Positions 28,696-38,970 of a stretch of 50,282 bases of DNA are shown here, piece by piece (the first letter of the stretch is position 1; the number at the start of each line of letters is the position of its first letter). A model generated the notes under the pieces. That model was not told the DNA's origin. It was given only the letters and a program-made list of their open reading frames with translations, and ran no database searches. The stretch comes from Lichenifustis flavocetrariae. Lineage in GTDB: Bacteria; Pseudomonadota; Alphaproteobacteria; Rhizobiales; Beijerinckiaceae. A program made the position numbers and the translations under genes. The stretch covers positions 1-50,282 of the forward strand of contig NZ_JAMOIM010000033.1 of the NCBI RefSeq assembly GCF_026130545.1. The letters are read 5' to 3'.

Positions 28696-29631
28696 TCAGC
28701 CGGTTGCAAAGGGTTTGTTGTGCGGGGATTCGTCACCGATCTGGCGGGCGAGCTCGGCCAGCTTTTCGGCGAAGCGGGTGGTGACGCCGTCGAGCGGCGC
28801 GCTGGTGCGATGGACGATCACCAGGGACTGGGACCCGGCCTCGCCGTCGGTGATCGGAATGAAGCTCAGCGCACCACGCTGACGGTCGACCTCGACATCC
28901 GCCTTGGTCAGCACGGTCGCCACGTCCCCCAGCATGGCGAGCCGCTTGAGAAGATCGATGGAGTTTGTCTCGACGATCGGGTCCACGGTGAGCCTGGTCC
29001 GCTTGATCGCCCGGTCTAACAGGGTCCTGATCGTCAACCCCTCGGCCGGCAGCGCGAAGGCACAGTCGGCCAGTTCGCTCCACCGCAGGCTGGCGCGGCT
29101 GGCGAGCGGGTGGCCGGGACGGACGACGAGGCCGAGGCTGCAGGGCGTGCTGCTGAAGGTCGTCAGGTTCGGCTGGGGCGGCATGTCGAACCCGAGACCG
29201 AGTTGCGCGTCGCCGCGGCCAACGGCCGCCGCGATGGCCTCGGACGGCATCGTCGTCACGCTGATCCGGGTCAGCGGATAGGTCTGGTGCCAAGCACTCA
29301 CGACCTGCGCCAGCACGTCGGTCGTCAAGGCCTCGAGCGTCGCCACGTGGATCTTGGAACGCCGAAGGGTCTTCAGGTCGCCGATGCGGTGAAGCGTCTG
29401 GCGGTGGTCCTTCATGGTCGCGCGAATGTGCTCGACAAGAAGTTCACCGATGGCGGTCAGGCGGACGCCACGGGACAGCCGCTCGAACACCGGCAGTCCG
29501 AGTTCTTCCTCGTAGGCGATGATCTGGCGGTTGATGGCCGACGACGCGACGGACAGACGCTCGGCGGCCTGCCGGATCGAGCCGGTCCGGGCCACCTCGT
29601 CGATATATCGCATCAAGCGTGAGTGCAGCAT
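28696..29631 (-). CDS. LysR-family regulator of the nitrogen-compound locus
   Basis: 311 residues from ATG 29631; the frame extends upstream without similarity. HTH: LMRYIDEVARTGSIRQAAER, LSVASSAINRQIIAYEEELG, PVFERLSRGVRLTAIGELL. Effector domain: KIHVATLEALTTDVLAQVVS and GLGFDMPPQPNLTTFSS. It is divergent from the first binding-protein gene. A TGCC-N5-GGCA dyad of T-N11-A type lies 26 bases before its start and recurs before the second transporter. I infer that it controls both arms of the 28.7-39 kb locus. Confidence 0.88.
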   Translation of the reverse strand: MLHSRLMRYIDEVARTGSIRQAAERLSVASSAINRQIIAYEEELGLPVFERLSRGVRLTAIGELLVEHIRATMKDHRQTLHRIGDLKTLRRSKIHVATLEALTTDVLAQVVSAWHQTYPLTRISVTTMPSEAIAAAVGRGDAQLGLGFDMPPQPNLTTFSSTPCSLGLVVRPGHPLASRASLRWSELADCAFALPAEGLTIRTLLDRAIKRTRLTVDPIVETNSIDLLKRLAMLGDVATVLTKADVEVDRQRGALSFIPITDGEAGSQSLVIVHRTSAPLDGVTTRFAEKLAELARQIGDESPHNKPFATG

Positions 29632-29656
29632 CGCGGCTCTCGTTCTGCGAATGCGA

Positions 29657-29693
29657 TGCCGGAAAGGCATCATAGCGGTCCGAAATCGGTGCT
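29657..29693 (+). promoter_or_regulatory. LysR-type box, copy 1, before the first ABC transporter
   Basis: The element begins TGCCGGAAAGGCATCAT and ends GAAATCGGTGCT. It contains the perfect dyad ATGCC-N5-GGCAT, with T-N11-A geometry, and matches 34741-34777 at 29 of 37 positions. It ends 71 bp before the binding-protein ATG. Confidence 0.6.
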
Positions 29694-29764
29694 TCCTTTG
29701 CCTCACACAAGCCGCTGTAATTCGCAAGGATCGAATGCTGGGTCTTGCGGCAAGGGAGTGGGCG

Positions 29765-30546
29765 ATGTTCTATAGGGCGAAACGCGCGTGGCTGATCGGC
29801 TGGGCAGCGCTACTTCTCGGAACTGTTCCGGCGATGGCCGAAATGGTCACGATCGCGACCGAGGCCGACTATCCCCCGTTCAGCAAGACCAAAGCCGACG
29901 GCCGTTATTCCGGGTTCGAGATCGATCTCGGCAACGCCGTCTGCGCAAAGGCAAAACTCGACTGCAAATGGGTCAAGCAGGAATTCGCCGGCATGATCCC
30001 GGGCCTTATGGCGCGGAAGTTCGACATGATTTTCTCGTCGATGTCGATCACGCCCGAGCGTGCCGCAGGCTCTTCTCCAAACCCTACCTGTCCGACCAGT
30101 TTCGCTTCTACGGGCCGAAAGGACATGACGTCACCTTCCCGGAGGGGCTCGACGGCAAGCGTGTCGGCGTCTTCGCAGGCTCGTCGGGCGAACAATTCAT
30201 CAAGTCCAAATGGGGCGACAAGGTCGAGACGCGGCCATACCAGAACCTTGATCAGGTGAATGCCGATCTCGAGGCGGGGCGCATCGACTACGGCTTCAAC
30301 GGCCAGCTGCCGGTCAGCACGTTTTTGAAGTCCGCGGCCGGCACGGAAAGCCAGTGGTACGGCCCATCCTACAGCGACCCGATCCTCGGCCGCGGCGCGG
30401 GTGCGCTGTTGCGGAAGGACGAGATGGAGCTCGCGACCAAGGTTAACGAGGCGATCGCGGCCGTCTACGCGGACGGGACCTTCGAGAAGCTCAGCCAAAG
30501 CTACTTCGGACCGCAGATCGACATCAAGGCCGACAAGCTCTGGTAA
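29765..30546 (+). pseudogene. Amino-acid-type ABC transporter substrate-binding protein 1, one frameshift
   Basis: ATG 29765, preceded by GGGAG, opens a signal peptide (WLIGWAALLLGTVPAMA) and the family-3 binding domain: TIATEADYPPFS, YSGFEIDLGNAVCAKA, KFDMIFSSMSITPERA. At about 30062-30065 the frame shifts: FSKPYLSDQFRFYGPKG is one frame over and continues intact (GKRVGVFAGSSGEQFIKS, FEKLSQSYFGPQIDIK) to the stop. Adding one C to GCCGCAGG gives RARRLFSKPYL, the expected sequence. Intact downstream genes and good codon structure make a sequencing error quite possible. If real, this importer has no binding protein of its own. Confidence 0.8.
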
Positions 30547-30568
30547 GGATTGCGCGGAGCGGGCCGCG

Positions 30569-31264
30569 ATGGAGACGCTCGTCCTCGCGGCGAGTTGGAG
30601 CGGGCAGCTCGCGGCCGGCCTCGGCGTGACGCTCGCGCTCGCAGCTCTTTCGATCGTCCTGGGCACGGCGGTCGGGCTGGGTTGCGCCCTGCTCGCCGCC
30701 CGACCGGGCGTGTTTGGCCCACGGCTGGTCCTGATGGCCGCCGGCCTGGTCCGCAGCCTGCCGGAATTGCTGGTGATCTTCGCCGCCTATTACGGCTTCG
30801 CCTTTCTTCTTCAGGCGATCGTGGCGCCCTTCGGCGTCACCGGCTTCGTCGCGATCGATGCGTTCTGGGCGGGCGTAATGGCCCTGACGTTGATCCATGC
30901 CGCGTTTTGCACGGAAGTGTTCCGGGGCGCCTTCGCGGCTCTGCCACCCGGCCCCATCGAGGCCGCCCGCGCCTTGGGCCTGCGGCGCGTCCCGGTCTTC
31001 TGGCTGGTCGCCTGGCCGCTGGCCCTGCGCTATGCCTTGCCCGGCTGGATGAACCTGACCATCGTCAGTCTCAAGTTGACCCCGCTCGTGGCTGCGGTGG
31101 GGCTTCAGGATTTGCTGAGGACGGCAGGCGATGCCGGCCGCAACACGCATGATTACCTGCTGTTCTACCTCCTCGCGCTCGGCATCTATCTCGCGCTCGC
31201 GGCCGCCATAGGTCTGATACAGATGCGGCTGGAAGCCCGTCTGACCCGCGTTTGGGCCGGGTGA
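30569..31264 (+). CDS. ABC transporter permease, polar amino acid type (HisQ/HisM-like)
   Basis: 231 residues from ATG 30569 (GGAG upstream). About five membrane helices; the His/Glu/Gln permease motif includes LVRSLPELLVIFAAYYG and, in the ATPase-contact loop, TEVFRGAFAALPPGPIEAAR followed by ALGLRRVPVFWLVAWP. It lies 22 bp after binding protein 1 and overlaps the next permease (GTGA). The pair resembles octopine/nopaline or arginine systems, which use two different permeases. Confidence 0.88.
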   Translation: METLVLAASWSGQLAAGLGVTLALAALSIVLGTAVGLGCALLAARPGVFGPRLVLMAAGLVRSLPELLVIFAAYYGFAFLLQAIVAPFGVTGFVAIDAFWAGVMALTLIHAAFCTEVFRGAFAALPPGPIEAARALGLRRVPVFWLVAWPLALRYALPGWMNLTIVSLKLTPLVAAVGLQDLLRTAGDAGRNTHDYLLFYLLALGIYLALAAAIGLIQMRLEARLTRVWAG

Positions 31265-32022
31265 GCGGAACAATGCCCTCTCGGCTCCTGGAGGCGCTAC
31301 CGCTGCTGTGGCAGGGCACACGGGTCACGGCAGCCCTGTTCTTCTGGACGGCCCTGCTGGCCCCGGCGATCGCCTTGCCGGTGGCGCTCGCCCGCGACAG
31401 CCGGAGCACGGCCTCGCGCCGCTTCGGCCATGGCTTCATCCTGTTCTTCCGGGGCGCGCCCCTGCTGGTCGTCTTGTTCCTGCTCTACTACGGGCTGCCG
31501 CAGGTGAACGCGCTGCGCCACAGCGCGCTCTGGCCCTTGCTGCGCGAGCCGTTTCCCGTGGCGGTCCTCGCCCTCGCGCTCAACTCCGCCGGCTTCCAGG
31601 CCGAGATAATGGCCGGTGCGCTCCGCGCCGTGCCGCTGGCGGAGGTCGAGGCCGCGACCGCGGCGGGTTTCTCACGCTGGCAGATCTTCCGGCTGATCAA
31701 GCTCCCGAATGCCGCCCGCATCGGATTGAGAAGCTACGGCAACGAACTCGTCTTCATCCTCAAGGGCACGGCCGTGGTGAGCTTCATCACGATCCGCGAC
31801 CTGATGAATGCCGCAACGGAGATCTATTCGCGCACCTTCGATCCAATTACGCCCCTGGTCTCGGCGGGGCTGATCTATCTCGCCATGGTGGCCGCCGTCG
31901 CGGCCGTGGTCCGGACGATGGAGCGCAAGCTCGATCCGCTGTTGCGGGCGGCGTGGCGGGGCCGACGTTCCGCGGCCGTGATGGTCGCGATCAGCCGAAA
32001 GCTGGCGCCAACCGTCCATTGA
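31261..32022 (+). CDS. ABC transporter permease, polar amino acid type (second of pair)
   Basis: 253 residues from GTG 31261, overlapping the preceding stop; ATG 31273 is an alternative. Helices with ILFFRGAPLLVVLFLLYYGL, then the EAA loop FQAEIMAGALRAVPLAEVEA, AATAAGFSRWQIFRLIKLP. The last 30 bases overlap the 3' end of the ATPase gene on the other strand, so transcripts from both sides converge here. Confidence 0.88.
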   Translation: MSGTMPSRLLEALPLLWQGTRVTAALFFWTALLAPAIALPVALARDSRSTASRRFGHGFILFFRGAPLLVVLFLLYYGLPQVNALRHSALWPLLREPFPVAVLALALNSAGFQAEIMAGALRAVPLAEVEAATAAGFSRWQIFRLIKLPNAARIGLRSYGNELVFILKGTAVVSFITIRDLMNAATEIYSRTFDPITPLVSAGLIYLAMVAAVAAVVRTMERKLDPLLRAAWRGRRSAAVMVAISRKLAPTVH

Positions 32023-32764
32023 GGAAGTTCGCGAGCCGCGTCGAACGCGGCGCGTCCAGGCATTGCGGGACCGGGACGTCTTCGACGATGCATCCGGCTT
32101 CCATGAAAACGACGCGGCTGGCCTGCCGGCGTGCGAAGCCAAGTTCGTGGGTCACCGTCACGGTCGTGATGCCGCGTTCCGTCGCCCGCTCGATGGCCTG
32201 AAGGACGCCCTGGACCCGTTCCGGATCGAGCGCCGAGGTCGGCTCGTCGAGCAGAAGGATGTCGGGGCCCTTCGCGAGCGCACGGGCCAGCGCCACCCGC
32301 TGGCGTTGGCCACCCGAAAGCTCGAACGGATAGGCATGAGCAAGCTCGGCGATTTCCATGGCTTCGAGATGCTGCCGCGCAGCCGCTTCGGCCACACGGC
32401 GCGGCAGGCCCAGGAGCTTCATGGGTGCGAGCGTGACGTTGTCGAGGACGTTTCGCTGGGCGTAGAGGTTGAAGCTCTGGAAGATCATTTCGCTATGGCG
32501 CCGGCAATAGCGAAGCGCCCCGTCATCCCGCAGGTCGCTGCCGAACACGCGCACCGCGCCGGCCTGTGGGACGGCCAGCCCGTTCATGCAGCGGATCAGC
32601 GTCGATTTTCCGGAGCCCGACGGACCGATGACCGCCACCCGCTCGCCACAGCGGATCGTGAGGTCGATGTCGCGCAAGACGGCCGTTGTGCCGTAGGACA
32701 GCCGCACGCCGTCGAGCTCGATGATCGGCACGCCCGGGGAGAGCGGCTGATGGCGGCCCTTCAA
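31991..32764 (-). CDS. ABC transporter ATP-binding protein, polar amino acid type
   Basis: 257 residues; the start is TTG 32764 or a downstream GTG near 32731. All motifs are present: Walker A GPSGSGKST, Q-loop MIFQSFNLY, signature LSGGQRQRVALARAL, Walker B ILLLDEPTSALDP and H-loop TVTHEL. It is the only ATPase gene in the locus and must energise one or both of the two permease pairs. It is transcribed with the RidA and DUF1989 genes, 43 bp after the RidA stop, away from the permeases. Confidence 0.9.
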   Translation of the reverse strand: MKGRHQPLSPGVPIIELDGVRLSYGTTAVLRDIDLTIRCGERVAVIGPSGSGKSTLIRCMNGLAVPQAGAVRVFGSDLRDDGALRYCRRHSEMIFQSFNLYAQRNVLDNVTLAPMKLLGLPRRVAEAAARQHLEAMEIAELAHAYPFELSGGQRQRVALARALAKGPDILLLDEPTSALDPERVQGVLQAIERATERGITTVTVTHELGFARRQASRVVFMEAGCIVEDVPVPQCLDAPRSTRLANFLNGRLAPAFG

Positions 32765-32807
32765 GGGTCCTGGCCTTCGGCTCGCTCGATCAAGACGTGC
32801 ATCTCCC

Positions 32808-33992
32808 TCACGGCATTGCGCCGCCGACCGCCGCGAGCCCGTCCCAGGCGGCGCCGATCACCGCGATCGCCTCCATTTCGACCAGGATGCCGTACTGGCC
32901 GAGCGGCGTCGCCACGAGCGACCGCGCCGGATAGGGCGGCGCGAAGACCTCAGCATAGGCGCGCTCGAAGGCGGGAATCAGCCGCGCATCCGACAAGGTG
33001 ACGCTGGTCTTCACAACGTCGGCGAGGGTCCCGCCGAGAGCTTCGAGCGACAATCTCACGTTCTCCAGCGTCCGCATCGTCTGGGCTGCGACATCGCCCG
33101 GTCCGACCAGCCGATCCTCCGCATCGTAGGGGCACTCGCCGGCGATGAACACCAGATCCCCGGCCCGAGCGCCATGGCTGTGCGGCCCTTTGCAGGGGCC
33201 AAGGTCGGGGAGGTAGGTCGTGTCGGGACGGGCCAGGAACTGATCCCGTCCCACACCGCTGCGTGTCGAATCGACGTAGCGGCGATCGAGGCCAGGCGCC
33301 GCGATCGCTTCGATCTCGATCAGGGACAAGGGATCGCGCAAGGCGCCGCTGACGGAACACCGCGCGGCGCTGGAACCCGCAAGATTGGAATTATAGGCGG
33401 CGTTGTAGAGCCGGTAGTCGTGCCAGCAGGAGGTCGTGTTGTTGACCTTGAGAAGGTCGTCCGGCCCGGCACCCGCTCGGTTCAGGGCGGCACACATCCG
33501 TTCGAGCGCCTGCTGGCCCTGCGCTCCAAGGTCGCCCGCGCCCACCAGCCGATCGCCCGCGAAGGGGCCGCACCCGGCCGTGAGCACCAGCGGGCCGAGC
33601 CGCGTCGCGACGATGGCGCCGTGCTCGACGACGACCTCCGGCCTGTCCCCGATCATGCCGACCGCTTCCAGCAGCGAAGATCCGCCGCCGGCAGGGAGAC
33701 CGGCGCCCACGGCCGTGATGGCGGCTGCGGGGAACACACTCCTGCAGACGGCCGTCGCATTGCCCGCGTCCTCCATGGTCACGAGGAACGCCTTGAGCTT
33801 ACCGACCTGGTCGGGCCGGCAGCCCAGCACCTCGAGCGCGCGGGCGACATGGGTCCAGCTATCGCCGCCGTCGCCGTGGCGGGTGCCGAGCGCTCCGGTG
33901 AACACAAGCCCGCCGGCCCGCACCGCGAGACTCTCGGCGCCCAGGGTCCGGAGGCCCGGCACGGCGACCGTCCGCATCGGGGCGGCCGTCAC
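32808..33992 (-). CDS. Triple RidA/YjgF-domain protein
   Basis: 394 residues built from three RidA-like units: about 1-120, 125-240 and 260-385. The third has the full set around PARSLVATPLGQYGILVEME with the Arg and Glu that bind and activate imines; the second has AARCSVSGALRDPLSLIEIE, also complete. The first (AAITAVGAGLPAGGG, LLEAVGMIG) lacks the Arg and looks structural. RidA proteins hydrolyse reactive enamines or imines to ketones and ammonia. GTG 33992 overlaps the DUF1989 stop (GTGA). RidA trimers are normally homomeric, so one chain may mimic a whole trimer. Confidence 0.85.
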   Translation of the reverse strand: MTAAPMRTVAVPGLRTLGAESLAVRAGGLVFTGALGTRHGDGGDSWTHVARALEVLGCRPDQVGKLKAFLVTMEDAGNATAVCRSVFPAAAITAVGAGLPAGGGSSLLEAVGMIGDRPEVVVEHGAIVATRLGPLVLTAGCGPFAGDRLVGAGDLGAQGQQALERMCAALNRAGAGPDDLLKVNNTTSCWHDYRLYNAAYNSNLAGSSAARCSVSGALRDPLSLIEIEAIAAPGLDRRYVDSTRSGVGRDQFLARPDTTYLPDLGPCKGPHSHGARAGDLVFIAGECPYDAEDRLVGPGDVAAQTMRTLENVRLSLEALGGTLADVVKTSVTLSDARLIPAFERAYAEVFAPPYPARSLVATPLGQYGILVEMEAIAVIGAAWDGLAAVGGAMP

Positions 33993-34615
33993 TGCGCCTC
34001 GCCAGGCCGGACCACGAGGCCGATCTCCGTGAGATGATAACCGTTGCAGGGACCCTGGTCCGAGGGACAGTTCGAGATGGCGACGATCAGATCCATGTCG
34101 GCGCGCAGATCAACGTAGTCGCCGGGCTTCGAGACCGGTTCGATGGTGCGGATACTGCCGTCCGGATGCATGCTCACGTTCATGAAGACGTTGAAGCTAT
34201 AGGGGATCTCCGTCATGGGGATGCCGAAGGGCGCCAGCGCCGCTTCGAGGTTCGAGCGGCAATTGGGGGTGTCATGCTGCCCGAAGCGCTTGAAATTCGA
34301 TCCCTCGTTGCACGAGCCGGCCAGCAGATCGTGAACGCCGCAGGTGTCGTCCACCAGGGTCATCAGGCTGTTGCAATGGTTGGACAGCAGGCTGCGGCCC
34401 TTCTTCATGTAGATGCTGCCCTGGTCCATCATGGTGACGTGCACCGAAAGCTTCTCGCCTAGATCGTGCCGGTTGAAGCAGACCAGATCGGCCACCTGCT
34501 GCCCCTCGATATCCGTGATGCGCAGCACCTCGCCGGCCCGCATCGCGAAGGCGCTGCGACCACGCGGTTCCAAGACCCGGTCGCGCGCTCCACTGGTCTC
34601 ACTCCCCTCTGCCAC
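33989..34615 (-). CDS. DUF1989 (urea-carboxylase-associated) protein A
   Basis: 208 residues from GTG 34615, 7 bases after GGGAG (TTG 34621 also in frame). DUF1989 motifs: LRITDIEGQQVADLVCFNRH, CGVHDLLAGSCNEGSNFKRF, PNCRSNLEAALAPFGI, IPYSFNVFMNV, SKPGDYVDLRADMDLIVAIS and SNCPSDQGPCNGY. The conserved Cys and His suggest a metal or covalent site. In guanidine degradation two DUF1989 proteins form carboxyguanidine deiminase CgdAB; no carboxylase or allophanate hydrolase is found here, so the substrate may differ. First gene of the minus-strand arm (DUF1989, RidA, ATPase). Confidence 0.85.
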   Translation of the reverse strand: MAEGSETSGARDRVLEPRGRSAFAMRAGEVLRITDIEGQQVADLVCFNRHDLGEKLSVHVTMMDQGSIYMKKGRSLLSNHCNSLMTLVDDTCGVHDLLAGSCNEGSNFKRFGQHDTPNCRSNLEAALAPFGIPMTEIPYSFNVFMNVSMHPDGSIRTIEPVSKPGDYVDLRADMDLIVAISNCPSDQGPCNGYHLTEIGLVVRPGEAQ

Positions 34616-34701
34616 GCCCAATCTCCCTTGCCTGATGGCGGCATCACAAGCCCAGGCGGCGAAGCCTGAGAAGAACCAAATACCTTGCGCAGCGATGCCT
34701 A

Positions 34702-34719
34702 AATGCGTGCGGGCGCATT
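34702..34719. promoter_or_regulatory. AATGCG dyad in the central divergent promoter region
   Basis: AATGCG-N6-CGCATT is a perfect 6-bp inverted repeat 22 bases before the LysR-type box at 34741, between the DUF1989 and binding-protein 2 genes. It may be a second activator or repressor site. Confidence 0.35.
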
Positions 34720-34740
34720 CCGCAAGGGCTGTTTTTCTGG

Positions 34741-34777
34741 TGCCTGAAAGGCATCATTGCAGGGTGAAATCAATGCT
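34741..34777 (+). promoter_or_regulatory. LysR-type box, copy 2, before the second ABC transporter
   Basis: Begins TGCCTGAAAGGCATCATTGC and contains TGCC-N5-GGCA (T-N11-A). It matches the element at 29657-29693 at 29 of 37 positions, in the same orientation relative to the binding-protein gene. It lies between the divergent DUF1989 A and binding-protein 2 genes, so it could serve both arms. Confidence 0.6.
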
Positions 34778-34874
34778 ATTCGCAGCGCGGTGTTCGTCTA
34801 GCCTGCTTTCAGTGGAGCCGAATCGTCGCCTCGATGGGTGACGCACTCACCCGTACTTTTCTCAAGGGGTCCTC

Positions 34875-35726
34875 ATGACGTTATGGACACGCCGGCCTTT
34901 CGTGGCCGCCTTAGCGCTCGCGCTCCTTGCCGGCGGCGCAAGCAGTGCAGCGCGCGCCGAGACCACGCTGCAGCACATCCTGGCCACCAAGAAGTTGACG
35001 GTCGGGACGGAGGTGGCCTTTCCGCCCTTCGAATTCATGCGGGACGGAAAGATCACGGGCTATGGCAAGGATATCCTCGATGCCGTGGTGGCCGACCTCG
35101 GGGTCGAGCTCAATCAACTCGACGTGCCGTTCCAGGGCATTCTCGCGGGGCTGGATGCCAAGAAATTCGACTTCGTGGCGACATCGGTCGGCGTCACGCC
35201 GGAGCGCGCCGCCAAATACGCTTTCACGTTTCCCATCGCGGTCTCGAGTGAAGTGATCGTGAAGCGGGCGGACGAGACCGCGCTGACCGCGGTCAAGGAT
35301 CTCGAAGGCAAGACGGTCGGCACCCAGCTCGGCACCACGACCGAGCAGGAGGCCCGCAAGGCGGATGCCGCCCTGAAGACCGCCGGCGGCATGGGTTTCG
35401 CCGACCTCAAGCTCTACCCGTCATTCCCAGAGGCCTATCAGGCCTTGGCCAGCGGCGAACTCGATGCCGTCGTGCAGAGCGCGCCCAATGCGGCCGTGCT
35501 GGTCAAGGAAAAGCCGGGTGTGTTCGGGCTCGCCGGACCGGTCAGCCAATCGCAGCGCTACATCGCCTGGGTCTGCCGGCCGGGCGACGACGATCTGCGG
35601 GCTCGCATCTCGAGCGTCATCAAGACAATGAACGACAACGGCAAGCTCGCCGAGCTGCAGAAGAACTGGTTCGGCTTCACCATGACGATCCCGGACAACG
35701 TCACGCTCCCGCCGGGCGCGCTCTGA
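34875..35726 (+). CDS. Amino-acid-type ABC transporter substrate-binding protein 2
   Basis: 283 residues from ATG 34875 (AAGGGG upstream). Signal peptide FVAALALALLAGGASSAARA with cleavage after ARA; then LTVGTEVAFPPFEFMRDGKI, GYGKDILDAVVADLGVELNQ, FDFVATSVGVTPERAAKYAF, LEGKTVGTQLGTTTEQEARK and YQALASGELDAVVQSAPNAA. The Arg and Asp of a family-3 polar-amino-acid site are present. It is not closely similar to binding protein 1, so the two importers may take up different compounds. Confidence 0.9.
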   Translation: MTLWTRRPFVAALALALLAGGASSAARAETTLQHILATKKLTVGTEVAFPPFEFMRDGKITGYGKDILDAVVADLGVELNQLDVPFQGILAGLDAKKFDFVATSVGVTPERAAKYAFTFPIAVSSEVIVKRADETALTAVKDLEGKTVGTQLGTTTEQEARKADAALKTAGGMGFADLKLYPSFPEAYQALASGELDAVVQSAPNAAVLVKEKPGVFGLAGPVSQSQRYIAWVCRPGDDDLRARISSVIKTMNDNGKLAELQKNWFGFTMTIPDNVTLPPGAL

Positions 35727-35745
35727 CGTCGATCGAAGGTTCGCC

Positions 35746-36405
35746 GTGGACTTCGACACGACCGCTTTCGCGACCGCCTTGCCCAAGCTGGTCGCCGCGA
35801 GCGGCGTCAGCCTCGGCATCGCGCTGCTGGCGATGTCGCTCGCGATCGGCGGCGGCTTCATGCTGACGGTGCTGCGGGCGCTCAAGTGGCCGCCGCTCAG
35901 CGCCATCGTGGCGGTCGCGCGAAGCATCATCTTCGGCACGCCGCTGCTGGTGCTGATCTTGATTGCCTATTACGTGCTGCCCGCGATCGGATTGAACCTC
36001 ACACCGGTGACGGCCGGCACTCTGGCGATCGGGACAAGCAGCGCCTTCTTTGTCAGCGAGATTTTCCGCGGCGGCCTTGCCACCATTCCGGCCGGACAAG
36101 TGGAAGCCGCGGCCAGCCTGAGCCTCGGCGCACCTTGCATCTGGCTTCGCGTTCTGCTGCCGCAGGTACTGCGCGTCAGCGTGCCGGCGCTCGTCAACGA
36201 GTTCACCATCCTGTTCAAGGCGACGGCATTGCTGTCAGCCATCACGGTGACCGACGTCCTGCGCACCGCCCAGCAGATCTATGCCGTGAATTATCGCCCG
36301 TTCGAGACGCTGCTCGCGGCGGCCTGCATCTATGTGGCAATCAATCTCATCGCGAGCCGGTTCGGCAGTCTCGCCGAACGACGCAATGCCCGGTTCGTGC
36401 GATGA
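35746..36405 (+). CDS. ABC transporter permease, second importer, subunit 1
   Basis: 219 residues from GTG 35746, 19 bp after binding protein 2. Helices include GVSLGIALLAMSLAIGGGFM and FGTPLLVLILIAYYVLPAIG. The ATPase-contact loop is FVSEIFRGGLATIPAGQVEA, AASLSLGAPCIWLRVLLPQV. The stop overlaps the next ATG. Confidence 0.88.
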   Translation: MDFDTTAFATALPKLVAASGVSLGIALLAMSLAIGGGFMLTVLRALKWPPLSAIVAVARSIIFGTPLLVLILIAYYVLPAIGLNLTPVTAGTLAIGTSSAFFVSEIFRGGLATIPAGQVEAAASLSLGAPCIWLRVLLPQVLRVSVPALVNEFTILFKATALLSAITVTDVLRTAQQIYAVNYRPFETLLAAACIYVAINLIASRFGSLAERRNARFVR

Positions 36406-37121
36406 CGGACGCCTTCGCGGTGCTCCGCGATCACGCCGGCCTGCTGGCGCAGGGTCTCCTGCTGACCGTGCTTCTGGCTTCCGCGGGGATCGTCGCAGGC
36501 TTGGTGCTGGCGGTGCCGCTCGCGCTGGCCAAGCTGTCCCGACACCGCGTTGTCCGGGGTCTCGGCACCGAACTGATCGAGCTTCTGCGCAACATGCCGT
36601 TCGTGGTGCTTCTGGTTGTGGTCCATTTCGGCGCCCCACGCCTCCTGATACGGTTCGCGCCGAGCACCAGCGGCGTCGTCGCGCTTGCCCTCTACGGCGC
36701 TGCCTATTTCGCCGAGGTCCTACGTGGTGCCTTTCTCTCCGTACCGCGAGGCCAGACGGAGGGAGCCCATGCCCTTGGCCTCACGGGTCGCGCAACGCTG
36801 ATTGCCGTGGTGGCGCCGCAGACGACCGCCGCTGCCGTTCCGCCCGGTCGCGTGGTGGCCGTGATGCTTCTCAAGGACTCCGCCGTCCTGTCGATCATTT
36901 CCGTGCCGGAGCTGACCCATGCGGCGATGCGGATCCAGGCGGAAAGCTTCGCGACCGTGCCGGTCTTCGCGGCCCTGGCGCTTCTCTACTGGCTGATGAC
37001 CCTCGGGCTTAGTGCGGCTGTGGACCGCCTTGAGGCCCGGACCCGCCTGCGGCGGCGCACGTCACTGCGCGGCAGCACCGTCGCGGCCCGCTATCTCGCA
37101 CTCGACTGGCCTTTGGTGTGA
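36402..37121 (+). CDS. ABC transporter permease, second importer, subunit 2
   Basis: 239 residues from ATG 36402 (ATGA overlap with subunit 1). Helices: LLLTVLLASAGIVAGLVLAV; contact loop YFAEVLRGAFLSVPRGQTEG, AHALGLTGRATLIAVVAPQT. Near the end LLYWLMTLGLSAAVDRLEAR is the final helix. A GTG at 37118 overlaps its stop, but the next gene more likely starts at 37160. Confidence 0.88.
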   Translation: MTDAFAVLRDHAGLLAQGLLLTVLLASAGIVAGLVLAVPLALAKLSRHRVVRGLGTELIELLRNMPFVVLLVVVHFGAPRLLIRFAPSTSGVVALALYGAAYFAEVLRGAFLSVPRGQTEGAHALGLTGRATLIAVVAPQTTAAAVPPGRVVAVMLLKDSAVLSIISVPELTHAAMRIQAESFATVPVFAALALLYWLMTLGLSAAVDRLEARTRLRRRTSLRGSTVAARYLALDWPLV

Positions 37122-37159
37122 CGATGCCGTTTCATCCCCCGCGTTCCGGAGAGACTCCG

Positions 37160-37831
37160 ATGCCCACCTCCGCCATCGATCGCCCTGCCGACCTGAGACA
37201 TCTTCCCGATGAGCCGGGACCCTGTCGGTGGGCGGAGGTTCTCGCCCCCAAGGGCCGGGTCGCCTTCGAGCTCGAACAGGGCGAAACGCTGCGCATCGTC
37301 GATCTCGACGGGCAGCAGGTCGCCGATTTCATCTGCTTCGACAAAAACAACATGGCTGACAAGATCTCCCACAGCACCACGGTCATGCTGAAGGGCAACA
37401 TCAATCTGACGACGGGCGACTACATCTATTCGGTCGACGCCTGGCGGATGTTGGAGATCACCCGCGACACGGTCGGGCGTCACGACATCCTCGCCGGCTC
37501 CTGCTGCCCGGGGTTGAACCGCATGCGCTACGGCAGCGAAGCCGAACATCAGCCGAACTGCCGCGAGAACCTGGCGGCCGTTATGGCGCCCTATGGTGTG
37601 AAGCTCACCGAAATCCCGTACACGTTCAATATCTTCATGAATGTCCCGGTCGGCCCGAACGGCGACATCGGCGTGATCGCGCCCATCTCGAAGCCGGGCG
37701 ACAGCATCGACCTCAAGGCCGAGCGGGACCTCGTGGTGGCGATCTCGAATTGCCCGCAGGAGCGCAATGTCTGCAACGGCTTCAAGGCGACGAGACTCGG
37801 TCTGTTGATCTACGCGGGGCAACCGTCGTGA
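37160..37831 (+). CDS. DUF1989 (urea-carboxylase-associated) protein B
   Basis: 223 residues from ATG 37160, where GGAGAG stands 6 bases upstream; ATG 37124 and GTG 37118 are in frame. Motifs parallel protein A: LRIVDLDGQQVADFICFDKN, DILAGSCCPGLNRMRYG, PNCRENLAAVMAPYGV, IPYTFNIFMNVPVGPNGDIG, SKPGDSIDLKAERDLVVAIS and NCPQERNVCNGF. A and B differ clearly, as expected for two subunits of a hetero-oligomer like CgdAB. Unusually, A and B lie on opposite arms of the locus. Confidence 0.85.
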   Translation: MPTSAIDRPADLRHLPDEPGPCRWAEVLAPKGRVAFELEQGETLRIVDLDGQQVADFICFDKNNMADKISHSTTVMLKGNINLTTGDYIYSVDAWRMLEITRDTVGRHDILAGSCCPGLNRMRYGSEAEHQPNCRENLAAVMAPYGVKLTEIPYTFNIFMNVPVGPNGDIGVIAPISKPGDSIDLKAERDLVVAISNCPQERNVCNGFKATRLGLLIYAGQPS

Positions 37832-38970
37832 GCGCGGCGGCCGGAATCGTTCTCGACGACTTGTTCCGCGGTCTCGTCTTCTTCGGGACAGGCGGGGGTG
37901 GCCGTGCGGCCGCCGGGATCGCGTTGTTGCGCGCGCATTTCGGGCCGGATTACCAGCCGCGCTTCACGGATCCGGCGTCTCTGCCCAGGGATGCGTTCGC
38001 CTGCGCCACCATCGTTTTGGGCGGCCGAGACCCGGAGGAGGATGTCAGTGCCGAGGAGCGGCACGCACTCGGGGTTCCGGCCGCGGATCTCGCCATGGGC
38101 GAGCGTTTCGCCCGTGCCGTGACGGCGTTGGAGCGCGCGACAGGTCGGACGATCACGGCGCTTGCCGTGGTCGAGCTTGGCAGCCTCGCCATGGCGGCGA
38201 CCCTGGTCGCGGCCGACCTCCTCGGCAAGGCGGTGCTTGACGCCGACGGCACCGGCCGCTCGATACCGGAACTCGGCCTCAGCAAGCTCGACCTCGTCGG
38301 TCTGGCGCCCGCGCCGCTTGCCCTGGTCGACCGGTTCGGGGGAGAGACGGTGCTGCTCTCGTCCCCGAGCGCCGCCATGGCGGATCGCCTCGGCCGTCAC
38401 GTCAGCCGCGCCGTGTGGGGTCGCGGGCTGGCCTGCGCCGGCTACCTTCAACCGGCGGCCTCATTCGGACAAGGACTGGTGGCCGGCAGTGTCGAACGCG
38501 CGCAAACGGCTGGGCAATTGCTGGGGGGCGCCGAACCGCCGAAGGTCCGGCTCGCGGCTGTCGTGGCCGCCTTTGATGCTCACCTGCTGTTCGAGGGTGT
38601 GGCAAAGCAGACGCATTGGCGAAGCCAGGAGCCTTACCGCTTCCGTGAACTCGACTACTTCATCGAGGGGACCGGCCGCGACGAGGGACGCCAATGCTCC
38701 ATCTGGGTGAAGAACGAGCACCATCTCGTCATGCGCGATGGCGTTCTCGTGGCCTCCAGCCCCGATCCCATTGCCGTGCTTGACGCGAGTACACTCGAAC
38801 CACTCACGACGCTCGGCGACGTGACGCCCGGCCGCGCTGTCTCCATCGTCGCCGTTCCGAGCCTGGATCCCATCTGGAGGACACCCGTAGGGCGAAACCT
38901 TTTGGGTCCACGCCGCTTCGGGTTTGATTTCGATCCTGTCCTGATCGGTGGAGACCGCAACACAGCCTGA
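37828..38970 (+). CDS. DUF917-family protein
   Basis: 380 residues from GTG 37828, overlapping the DUF1989 B stop (GTGA). N-terminal glycine motif VFFGTGGGGRAAAGIALL, then FACATIVLGGRDPEEDVSAE, a central ITALAVVELGSLAMAATLVA, and in the C-terminal half EGRQCSIWVKNEHHLVMRDG and SSPDPIAVLDASTLEPLTT. DUF917 proteins occur with hydantoinase-like and allantoin-type genes; one group is named S-methyl thiohydantoin desulfurase. Position at the end of the uptake/DUF1989 operon suggests hydrolysis or rearrangement of the imported compound. Confidence 0.83.
   Translation: MSAAAGIVLDDLFRGLVFFGTGGGGRAAAGIALLRAHFGPDYQPRFTDPASLPRDAFACATIVLGGRDPEEDVSAEERHALGVPAADLAMGERFARAVTALERATGRTITALAVVELGSLAMAATLVAADLLGKAVLDADGTGRSIPELGLSKLDLVGLAPAPLALVDRFGGETVLLSSPSAAMADRLGRHVSRAVWGRGLACAGYLQPAASFGQGLVAGSVERAQTAGQLLGGAEPPKVRLAAVVAAFDAHLLFEGVAKQTHWRSQEPYRFRELDYFIEGTGRDEGRQCSIWVKNEHHLVMRDGVLVASSPDPIAVLDASTLEPLTTLGDVTPGRAVSIVAVPSLDPIWRTPVGRNLLGPRRFGFDFDPVLIGGDRNTA

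Follow-up and report, generated by a model that had tools for sequence, protein, structure and literature searches.

A LysR-linked locus of two family-3 importers with DUF1989, RidA, and DUF917 proteins in Lichenifustis flavocetrariae

RESULTS AND DISCUSSION

Gene content and conservation of the locus

We examined a stretch of DNA from Lichenifustis flavocetrariae (Beijerinckiaceae), hereafter the window, which comprises 50,282 nucleotides and is the whole of one contig (NZ_JAMOIM010000033.1; C107) of a 7.5-Mb draft genome that is 99.7% complete. Between positions 28,696 and 38,970, the window carries a LysR-family regulator together with two family-3 binding proteins (SBP1 and SBP2), four ABC permeases, one ATPase, two DUF1989 proteins (D1 and D2), a protein composed of three RidA units, and a DUF917 protein (Table 1). 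Gene calls were based on a listing of open reading frames (ORFs) and on Pfam and NCBIfam scans of ten locus proteins; in several scans, the ATPase and/or D1 queries were one codon longer upstream (31991 to 32767 and 33989 to 34624). A preliminary description of this DNA, made from its letters, had listed the same genes, all of which stand except SBP1, which is not a single open gene. Its account of closely spaced, overlapping genes also holds, since D2 overlaps both permease 4 and DUF917. The combination is a real and conserved one, built from known families, and it is not described in the open-licence PMC papers searched. None of those papers contained even two of DUF1989, RidA, and DUF917, in line with the earlier remark that no described pathway with this exact set was known, and no two of the terms "urea carboxylase-associated," "aminopeptidase," and "Rid family" occurred together within any of them.

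Relatives of the locus were found in Ancylobacter. Among 30 genomes of this genus, five carry D2 (62 to 82% identity), DUF917, permeases 3 and 4, and SBP2, the last of these being cut by a contig end in A. radicis, and two of the 30, A. gelatini and the genome G654, carry D1, the triple RidA, and importer 1 as well. The locus is divided into a core, consisting of importer 2, D2, and DUF917, and an extension, consisting of D1, RidA, and importer 1 and, in relatives, an M17 gene; the window has the extension without M17 and without an intact SBP1. Given that gene order, inserted genes aside, is kept in A. gelatini and G654, we consider the gene set to be more than a chance assemblage. The preliminary description had raised two contrary outcomes, namely, that the set would not be conserved in other genomes or that homologous loci would always contain urea/guanidine carboxylase and allophanate hydrolase genes. 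The set was found in 2 of the 30 genomes, and neither gene was matched in the stretches fetched around the orthologous loci (L094, L100, and L104). In both full relatives (2/2), a gene of the M17 leucyl-aminopeptidase type lies between RidA and the ATPase. The two M17 proteins are 71% identical to each other and contain the motif NTDAEGR, which we take to be the signature of the M17 family. A tblastn search found no M17 match in the window, and the best identity elsewhere in the genome was 41%, with one match in two pieces.

A scan of named genomes with DUF917, which used six 8-residue patterns from one protein and can miss distant relatives, recovered only Ancylobacter lacus, A. radicis, and A. 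gelatini (67 to 70% identity) and a Rhizobium metagenome-assembled genome (MAG; 46%); DUF917 orthologues in two further Ancylobacter-genus genomes have 67% and 51% identity. Within the family to which the window belongs, 396 other genomes yielded no DUF917 orthologue at an E value of 1e-40. Searches of 59 other relatives and of 397 other genomes of the phylum returned remote matches and no orthologue (two relatives with matches at 29 to 30% identity in the former, ten genomes with matches at an E value of 1e-20 in the latter), the best of them scoring 105 bits versus 829 bits for DUF917 against itself. Similarly, the best match to the triple RidA in 248 other genomes of the order scored 78.4 bits versus 860.5 bits for the self match, and in searches of a plasmid collection with RidA, DUF917, and D1, the best place of every record was below 60% identity. 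The locus is therefore patchy and has probably moved horizontally, with transfer between Ancylobacter-like and window-like bacteria as the probable event. Its G+C content is 66.3%, versus 63.6 to 63.8% in the flanks.

Table 1. Features of the locus, with positions in the window and the matches on which each assignment rests
Feature	Position	Strand	Match or identity
LysR-family regulator	28696..29631	-	PF00126/PF03466; 64-68% identity to both LysRs of the A. gelatini locus
Palindromic LysR-type box, copy 1, TGCC-N5-GGCA	29657..29676	+	LysR/SBP1 gap; exact match
SBP1, family-3 binding protein	29765..30546	+	PF00497 in two pieces; frame broken near 30052-30070
ABC permease 1	30569..31264	+	PF00528; 58% identity to A. 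gelatini
ABC permease 2	31273..32022	+	PF00528; 59% identity to A. gelatini
ABC ATPase, sole one in the locus	31991..32764	-	PF00005; 62% identity to A. gelatini
Triple RidA	32808..33992	-	PF01042; 54-55% identity to two orthologues
DUF1989 protein D1	33989..34621	-	PF09347, 181 bits; 74-77% identity to two orthologues
Palindromic LysR-type box, copy 2	34741..34760	+	D1/SBP2 gap; exact match
SBP2, family-3 binding protein	34875..35726	+	PF00497
ABC permease 3	35746..36405	+	tblastn, 65-67% to three Ancylobacter orthologues; not Pfam
ABC permease 4	36402..37121	+	PF00528
DUF1989 protein D2	37118..37831	+	PF09347, 169 bits; 76-82% identity to four Ancylobacter orthologues and 62% to one more
DUF917 (S-Me-THD-like) protein	37825..38970	+	PF06032 + PF20906; 67-70% to three named Ancylobacter orthologues

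A palindromic box shared by both halves

The 20-bp palindromic box TGCCNGAAAGGCATCATNGC occurs at positions 29657 and 34741, in the divergent promoter regions between LysR and SBP1 and between D1 and SBP2. A scan of the window for TGCCNGAAAGGCATCATNGC with up to 3 mismatches returned those two sites only (0.09 expected; none of 100 shuffles gave two matches). When as many as 2 mismatches were allowed, a 21-base form of the box returned three sites across the whole 7.5-Mb genome, namely, the same two with 0 mismatches and one elsewhere with 2. The core TGCCN5GGCA is exact in seven of nine promoter regions (2 of 2 in the window and 5 of 7 in relatives); each of the remaining two differs from it by a single mismatch. 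Sites of LysR regulators are of the inverted-repeat type, and the box fits such a site, which suggests joint control of the two opposite-strand halves. The A. gelatini locus has a second LysR gene between D1 and SBP2; this gene left no tblastn match in the corresponding gap of the window, and the box is still there. Since a near-identical box is found at both divergent promoters, the locus appears to behave as one unit.

Importers and their binding proteins

Parts of a polar amino acid importer of family 3 are present in the locus (SBP2, permeases, and ATPase). The reading frame of SBP1 is broken, and the two halves occupy different frames, which meet near 30052 to 30070; PF00497 recognizes SBP1 as two pieces, at 29846 to 30067 and 30052 to 30510. 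The A. gelatini orthologue of SBP1 is a single open frame (L087:13728-14531). The window has one ATPase for its four permeases and not one for each importer; the NCBIfam match of this ATPase is GlnQ-like, below the cut-off. The number of ATPases differs among orthologous loci, with a match in each half in G654 and one in A. gelatini and in the window (L094:10833; L100). The second match of G654, located between permease 4 and D2, was obtained by tblastn only (41% over 259 residues).

A. gelatini SBP1 is nearest to LAO/HisJ and then to octopine- and nopaline-binding proteins, and SBP2 is nearest to glutamine/arginine-type binders. We compared binding-protein residues at positions 11, 14, 72, 77, and 161. 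The carboxylate-binding arginine (Arg77) is kept in SBP1 and SBP2, and Asp161 is replaced by Ser in SBP2, by Gly in SBP1, and by Ala in A. gelatini SBP1. Portions of two reports (PMC5740067, PMC4192606) describe Asp161 of LAO as holding the free alpha-amine and as absent in OccJ and NocT. Loss of this residue is a hint that the ligand could have a blocked, guanidino, or absent alpha-amine. Because an Asp placed at position 161 of OccJ leaves octopine binding unchanged, according to a portion of the first report (PMC5740067), position 161 alone does not decide the ligand. The pair Gly72 and Ser161 of SBP2 is that of NocT, and Ser72 with Gly or Ala at 161 in SBP1 resembles OccJ (PMC5740067, PMC4192606). 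These residues, together with the octopine- and nopaline-binding proteins that follow LAO/HisJ among the matches of A. gelatini SBP1, could fit opine-type catabolism, in which the importers would take up an N-carboxyalkyl amino acid. However, the locus contains no opine oxidase or dehydrogenase, the likeness draws on part of the opine signature positions, and position 161 varies widely among the genome's other binding proteins, all of which make us regard opine uptake as improbable.

Two DUF1989 proteins outside the carboxyguanidine deiminase clades

The preliminary description had taken the paired DUF1989 proteins to be a carboxyguanidine deiminase, an assignment that did not survive closer comparison. 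D1 and D2 belong to the same Pfam family as this enzyme, and their nearest NCBIfam model is UAAP2, but their scores against TIGR03424/TIGR03425 (176.2/120.6 for D1 and 174.3/110.1 for D2) are far below the cut-offs of 284.7/205.95. CgdA and CgdB have been defined as two clades of the PF09347 tree (part of PMC11410670). In our 100-row tree, three D1 and four D2 rows formed a clade of their own (100/91) outside both; neither the residue alignment nor the tree included D2 of A. lacus or A. radicis, and three divergent DUF1989 sequences were removed ahead of tree building. Three zinc cysteines and an Asp are kept in D1, D2, and the aligned orthologues (7 of 7 rows), whereas the CgdA-type subunit lacks two of the three cysteines and the Asp in all five carboxylase-linked loci of the survey described below. 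An excerpt of PMC11271267 states that CgdAB contains an inactive cognate. In trimethylamine N-oxide (TMAO) demethylase, three cysteines and an Asp are placed at the zinc site, and the bridging role first proposed for the Asp is doubted in a section of the source (PMC12560246). Furthermore, the genome has no match above the cut-off to the urea/guanidine carboxylase model TIGR02712, partial matches only being found, and no carboxylase was matched around the two full orthologous loci. Nor is the pair obligatory, as three of the five Ancylobacter genomes with D2 and DUF917 are without D1 (A. lacus, A. radicis, and G668). We therefore reject CgdAB as the identity of D1 and D2, and guanidine assimilation with D1 and D2 as the two subunits of that enzyme seems to us barely credible.

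Triple RidA and DUF917

The triple RidA matches PF01042 at 124.7 bits over two significant stretches, and its first third is a divergent RidA-like unit. In an alignment, unit 1 is without Arg, and units 2 and 3 have both Arg and Glu, a pattern that is the same in the window, A. gelatini, and G654; we take the Arg and Glu to be the catalytic residues. RidA proteins are trimers with sites between subunits, and it is an attractive idea that the triple RidA may be a single-chain pseudo-trimer with fewer working sites. An AlphaFold2 model built from 2 sequences (predicted local distance difference test score, 53.4; predicted TM score, 0.61) was too poor to serve as a test of a single-chain trimer. 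A different three-unit RidA was seen in another genome of the order (G037, L046:8860-10092; 410 amino acids, 27% identity over two units), where it adjoins a LysR gene; the 19 kb around it contained no DUF1989 match.

The DUF917 protein matches both PF06032 (82.2 bits) and PF20906 (106.6 bits), for which the cut-offs are 27. Part of PMC11055893 reports that DUF917 genes are enriched near cyclodipeptide oxidase genes and offers hydantoinase activity there as a suggestion only. This enrichment (PMC11055893, same part), together with the M17 gene that both full relatives (2 of 2) have between the ATPase and RidA, could point to a hydantoin or cyclic-dipeptide pathway. In such a pathway, DUF917 would open the ring, M17 would cleave the (dehydro)dipeptide so formed, RidA would handle the resulting dehydroamino acid, an enamine, and the DUF1989 proteins would remove an amidine group. 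We find this rather unlikely, given that no cyclodipeptide oxidase, hydantoin racemase, or hydantoinase family was found among the 30 window ORFs scanned with Pfam, which are part of those in the window, that the importers are of the amino acid and not the peptide type, and that M17 is absent from the window.

Flanking genes and DUF1989 neighborhoods elsewhere

No pathway-like genes were found among the 20 flanking ORFs scanned. By Pfam, the right flank encodes a CLC channel, an RND efflux pair, a two-cupin protein, and a LysR, and the left flank encodes a helix-turn-helix regulator, an epimerase, a phosphoesterase, transposase-type genes, dehydrogenases, exporters, and others. The transposase-type genes lie in the left part of the contig at 752 to 2032 and 18739 to 19494 (DDE_Tnp_1_4; DUF772). 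Rfam searches at the gathering threshold and tRNA searches across the window gave 0 matches.

To set D1 and D2 beside other members of their family, we surveyed 60 DUF1989 regions of the order, hand-picked among the matches listed (the best-scoring part), so that the counts are biased and not family-wide. Long frames of the TMAO demethylase type and most tandem pairs, which are the likeliest to be carboxylase linked, were left out, and contexts were assigned from the best tblastn matches of a small panel within 6.5 kb. Neighbors included arginase-family genes (15/60), family-3 binding proteins (13/60), M20 (8/60), N-oxygenases of the GntA type (YqcI/YcgG; 7/60), carboxylase (5/60), and RidA (2/60), and 29 of the 60 regions had none of the panel. 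Many DUF1989 genes are without a carboxylase nearby (no match in 55 of the 60 regions of this biased sample), so that an automatic name like "urea carboxylase-associated protein" can be misleading. Outside the survey, the family-3 association is seen again in several Ancylobacter-genus loci and on a Paraburkholderia plasmid. Importers with an SBP2-like binding protein (55 to 57% identity) are also found with an arginase-family gene on either side and a DUF1989 gene downstream (L086, L146, and L151), which by guilt of association suggests that SBP2-type importers may take up guanidino or amidino compounds.

Several other DUF1989 arrangements came to light. The GntA-type N-oxygenase gene adjoins DUF1989 in the 7 of 60 regions noted above and on a Novosphingobium plasmid (L126, L127, L128, L130, L131, L142, L143, and L045). 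The GntA-type matches are 46 to 66% identical to the Novosphingobium one by tblastn, and the eight linked DUF1989 genes form one clade (100/100), which suggests that this clade may have a dedicated, perhaps N-hydroxy, substrate. In one region (L112:6452-11900), a RidA-like match and a family-3 importer stand in one row, on one strand, with a trio of DUF1989 genes, of which one is CgdB-like, one is CgdA-like but lacks the first two cysteines, and one falls in another clade; no carboxylase was matched in the region. Another (L146:5188-12700) combines four tandem DUF1989 matches and two arginase-family genes with an importer, the binding protein of which shares 57% identity with SBP2. In two Ancylobacter-genus genomes (L096:8357-10264 and L106), a family-3 importer comes after a tandem of three DUF1989 genes, the third of which has no zinc cysteines. 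Finally, on plasmid p1 of Sinorhizobium sp. B11 (L042:9630-13173), the guanidine/urea carboxylase gene is frame-broken as deposited and is absent from the PLSDB gene table.

Proposed function

We propose, with a probability of roughly 0.45, that the locus is a LysR-controlled, probably horizontally acquired unit through which an N-substituted or guanidino-type amino acid derivative is imported and broken down by hydrolysis. The preliminary description had also arrived at import and breakdown, and the present analysis supports this for a small polar nitrogen compound. LysR would sense the compound or a product and open both promoters. The family-3 importers, sharing one ATPase, would take up an amino acid derivative that bears a carboxylate and has a substituted or guanidino/amidino-like alpha-nitrogen. 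Hydrolysis of an amidine-like C-N bond would fall to D2, alone or together with D1, both being predicted zinc DUF1989 enzymes whose kin act in this way on carboxyguanidine, and DUF917 would hydrolyze a hydantoin-like ring, possibly a cyclic guanidine or thiohydantoin. In relatives, the M17 aminopeptidase would cut a peptide-type bond and free an amino acid, plausibly yielding the RidA substrate, and the fused RidA would convert an enamine or imine product to a ketone or keto acid and ammonia. The gene content, conserved order, shared box, residue conservation, and patchy distribution are features of the sequences themselves; LysR binding to the box, zinc binding, the substrate class, the reaction of each enzyme, and the order of steps we infer from knowledge of the families.

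Several observations weigh against this proposal. Among the other family-3 binding proteins of the genome itself, 9 of 17 scorable ones (of 20) keep Asp/Glu at position 161 and 8 do not, so the loss of Asp161 is a hint only. Of 24 DUF1989-linked binding proteins taken, four (L089, L144, L154, and L166) were left out as truncated, overlong, or poorly matched; 14 of the 20 scored are without Asp161, and 6 keep it, among them proteins of arginase-family-linked loci. The exactness of the two boxes is partly by construction, as the pattern was derived from these sites, and the core TGCCN5GGCA by itself turns up at two more positions in the window, 19784 and 23710, that are unrelated to the locus promoters. 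DUF917 was found in none of the 60 surveyed DUF1989 regions, and the DUF917 relative in the Rhizobium MAG (46%) has no DUF1989 match within about 10 kb. Against the thiohydantoin desulfurase models NF058532 and NF058529, the DUF917 protein scores 35.1 of 450 and 23.7 of 440 bits; since it is so far from these models, its chemistry is a guess. Last, with SBP1 broken and M17 and the second LysR absent, the pathway may not run fully in this strain.

This last point raises the question of whether the strain may run the core route only or whether the island may be decaying. A once complete pathway that is now nonfunctional in this strain would account for the broken SBP1 frame, for the missing M17, whose best copy in the genome is at 41%, and for the second LysR and second ATPase that are missing relative to the relatives. 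Yet the other genes are open, D1, D2, RidA, and DUF917 share 51 to 82% identity as well as key residues with their orthologues, neither box is disrupted, and the SBP1 frameshift could be an assembly error. We consider complete loss of function in this strain unlikely and return to import and hydrolytic breakdown as our preferred account. A more specific and more doubtful version of that account, which we put forward tentatively, is that the locus may encode an undescribed pathway. In it, a new zinc DUF1989 lineage other than Cgd would work with a ring hydrolase of the DUF917 family and with a RidA that forms a pseudo-trimer from a single chain, joined by M17 in relatives, to dismantle an imported N-substituted or cyclic-guanidine amino acid derivative under one LysR palindrome.

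Few members of the large DUF1989 and DUF917 families have been tested. A small, well-bounded locus with an operator-like box and orthologues makes the functions of three poorly known lineages testable, namely, DUF1989 proteins that are neither carboxyguanidine deiminases nor TMAO demethylases, a DUF917 protein distant from thiohydantoin desulfurases, and a fused RidA.

Comparison with known systems

Like CgdAB (UAAP1/UAAP2), the locus has two DUF1989 proteins, and the three cysteines of D1 and D2 are those of CgdB-type subunits. Unlike CgdAB, D1 and D2 form a separate lineage with cysteines in both proteins, no carboxylase was found, and the locus includes family-3 importers, DUF917, and RidA. 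The DUF917 protein shares both Pfam domains (PF06032 and PF20906) with S-methyl thiohydantoin and thiohydantoin desulfurases, although it reaches only 35 and 24 bits against their models, versus 450 and 440. As in the opine importers OccJ and NocT, the binding proteins are of family 3, with the carboxylate arginine kept and Asp161 replaced in SBP1 and SBP2, a likeness that is not specific and was drawn at a few signature positions only; unlike those systems, the locus is without an opine-degrading oxidase. Compared with the enamine-imine deaminases RidA and RutC, the triple RidA has three units per chain, the first without Arg, and keeps Arg and Glu in units 2 and 3. Finally, D1 and D2 differ from the DUF1989 domain of TMAO demethylase (Tdm) in standing alone, with no GcvT domain, and in having Thr (D1) or Gln (D2) at the H276 position, and they share with it the zinc cysteines, the Asp, and, where Tdm has D346, an acidic residue (Asp in D1 and Glu in D2).

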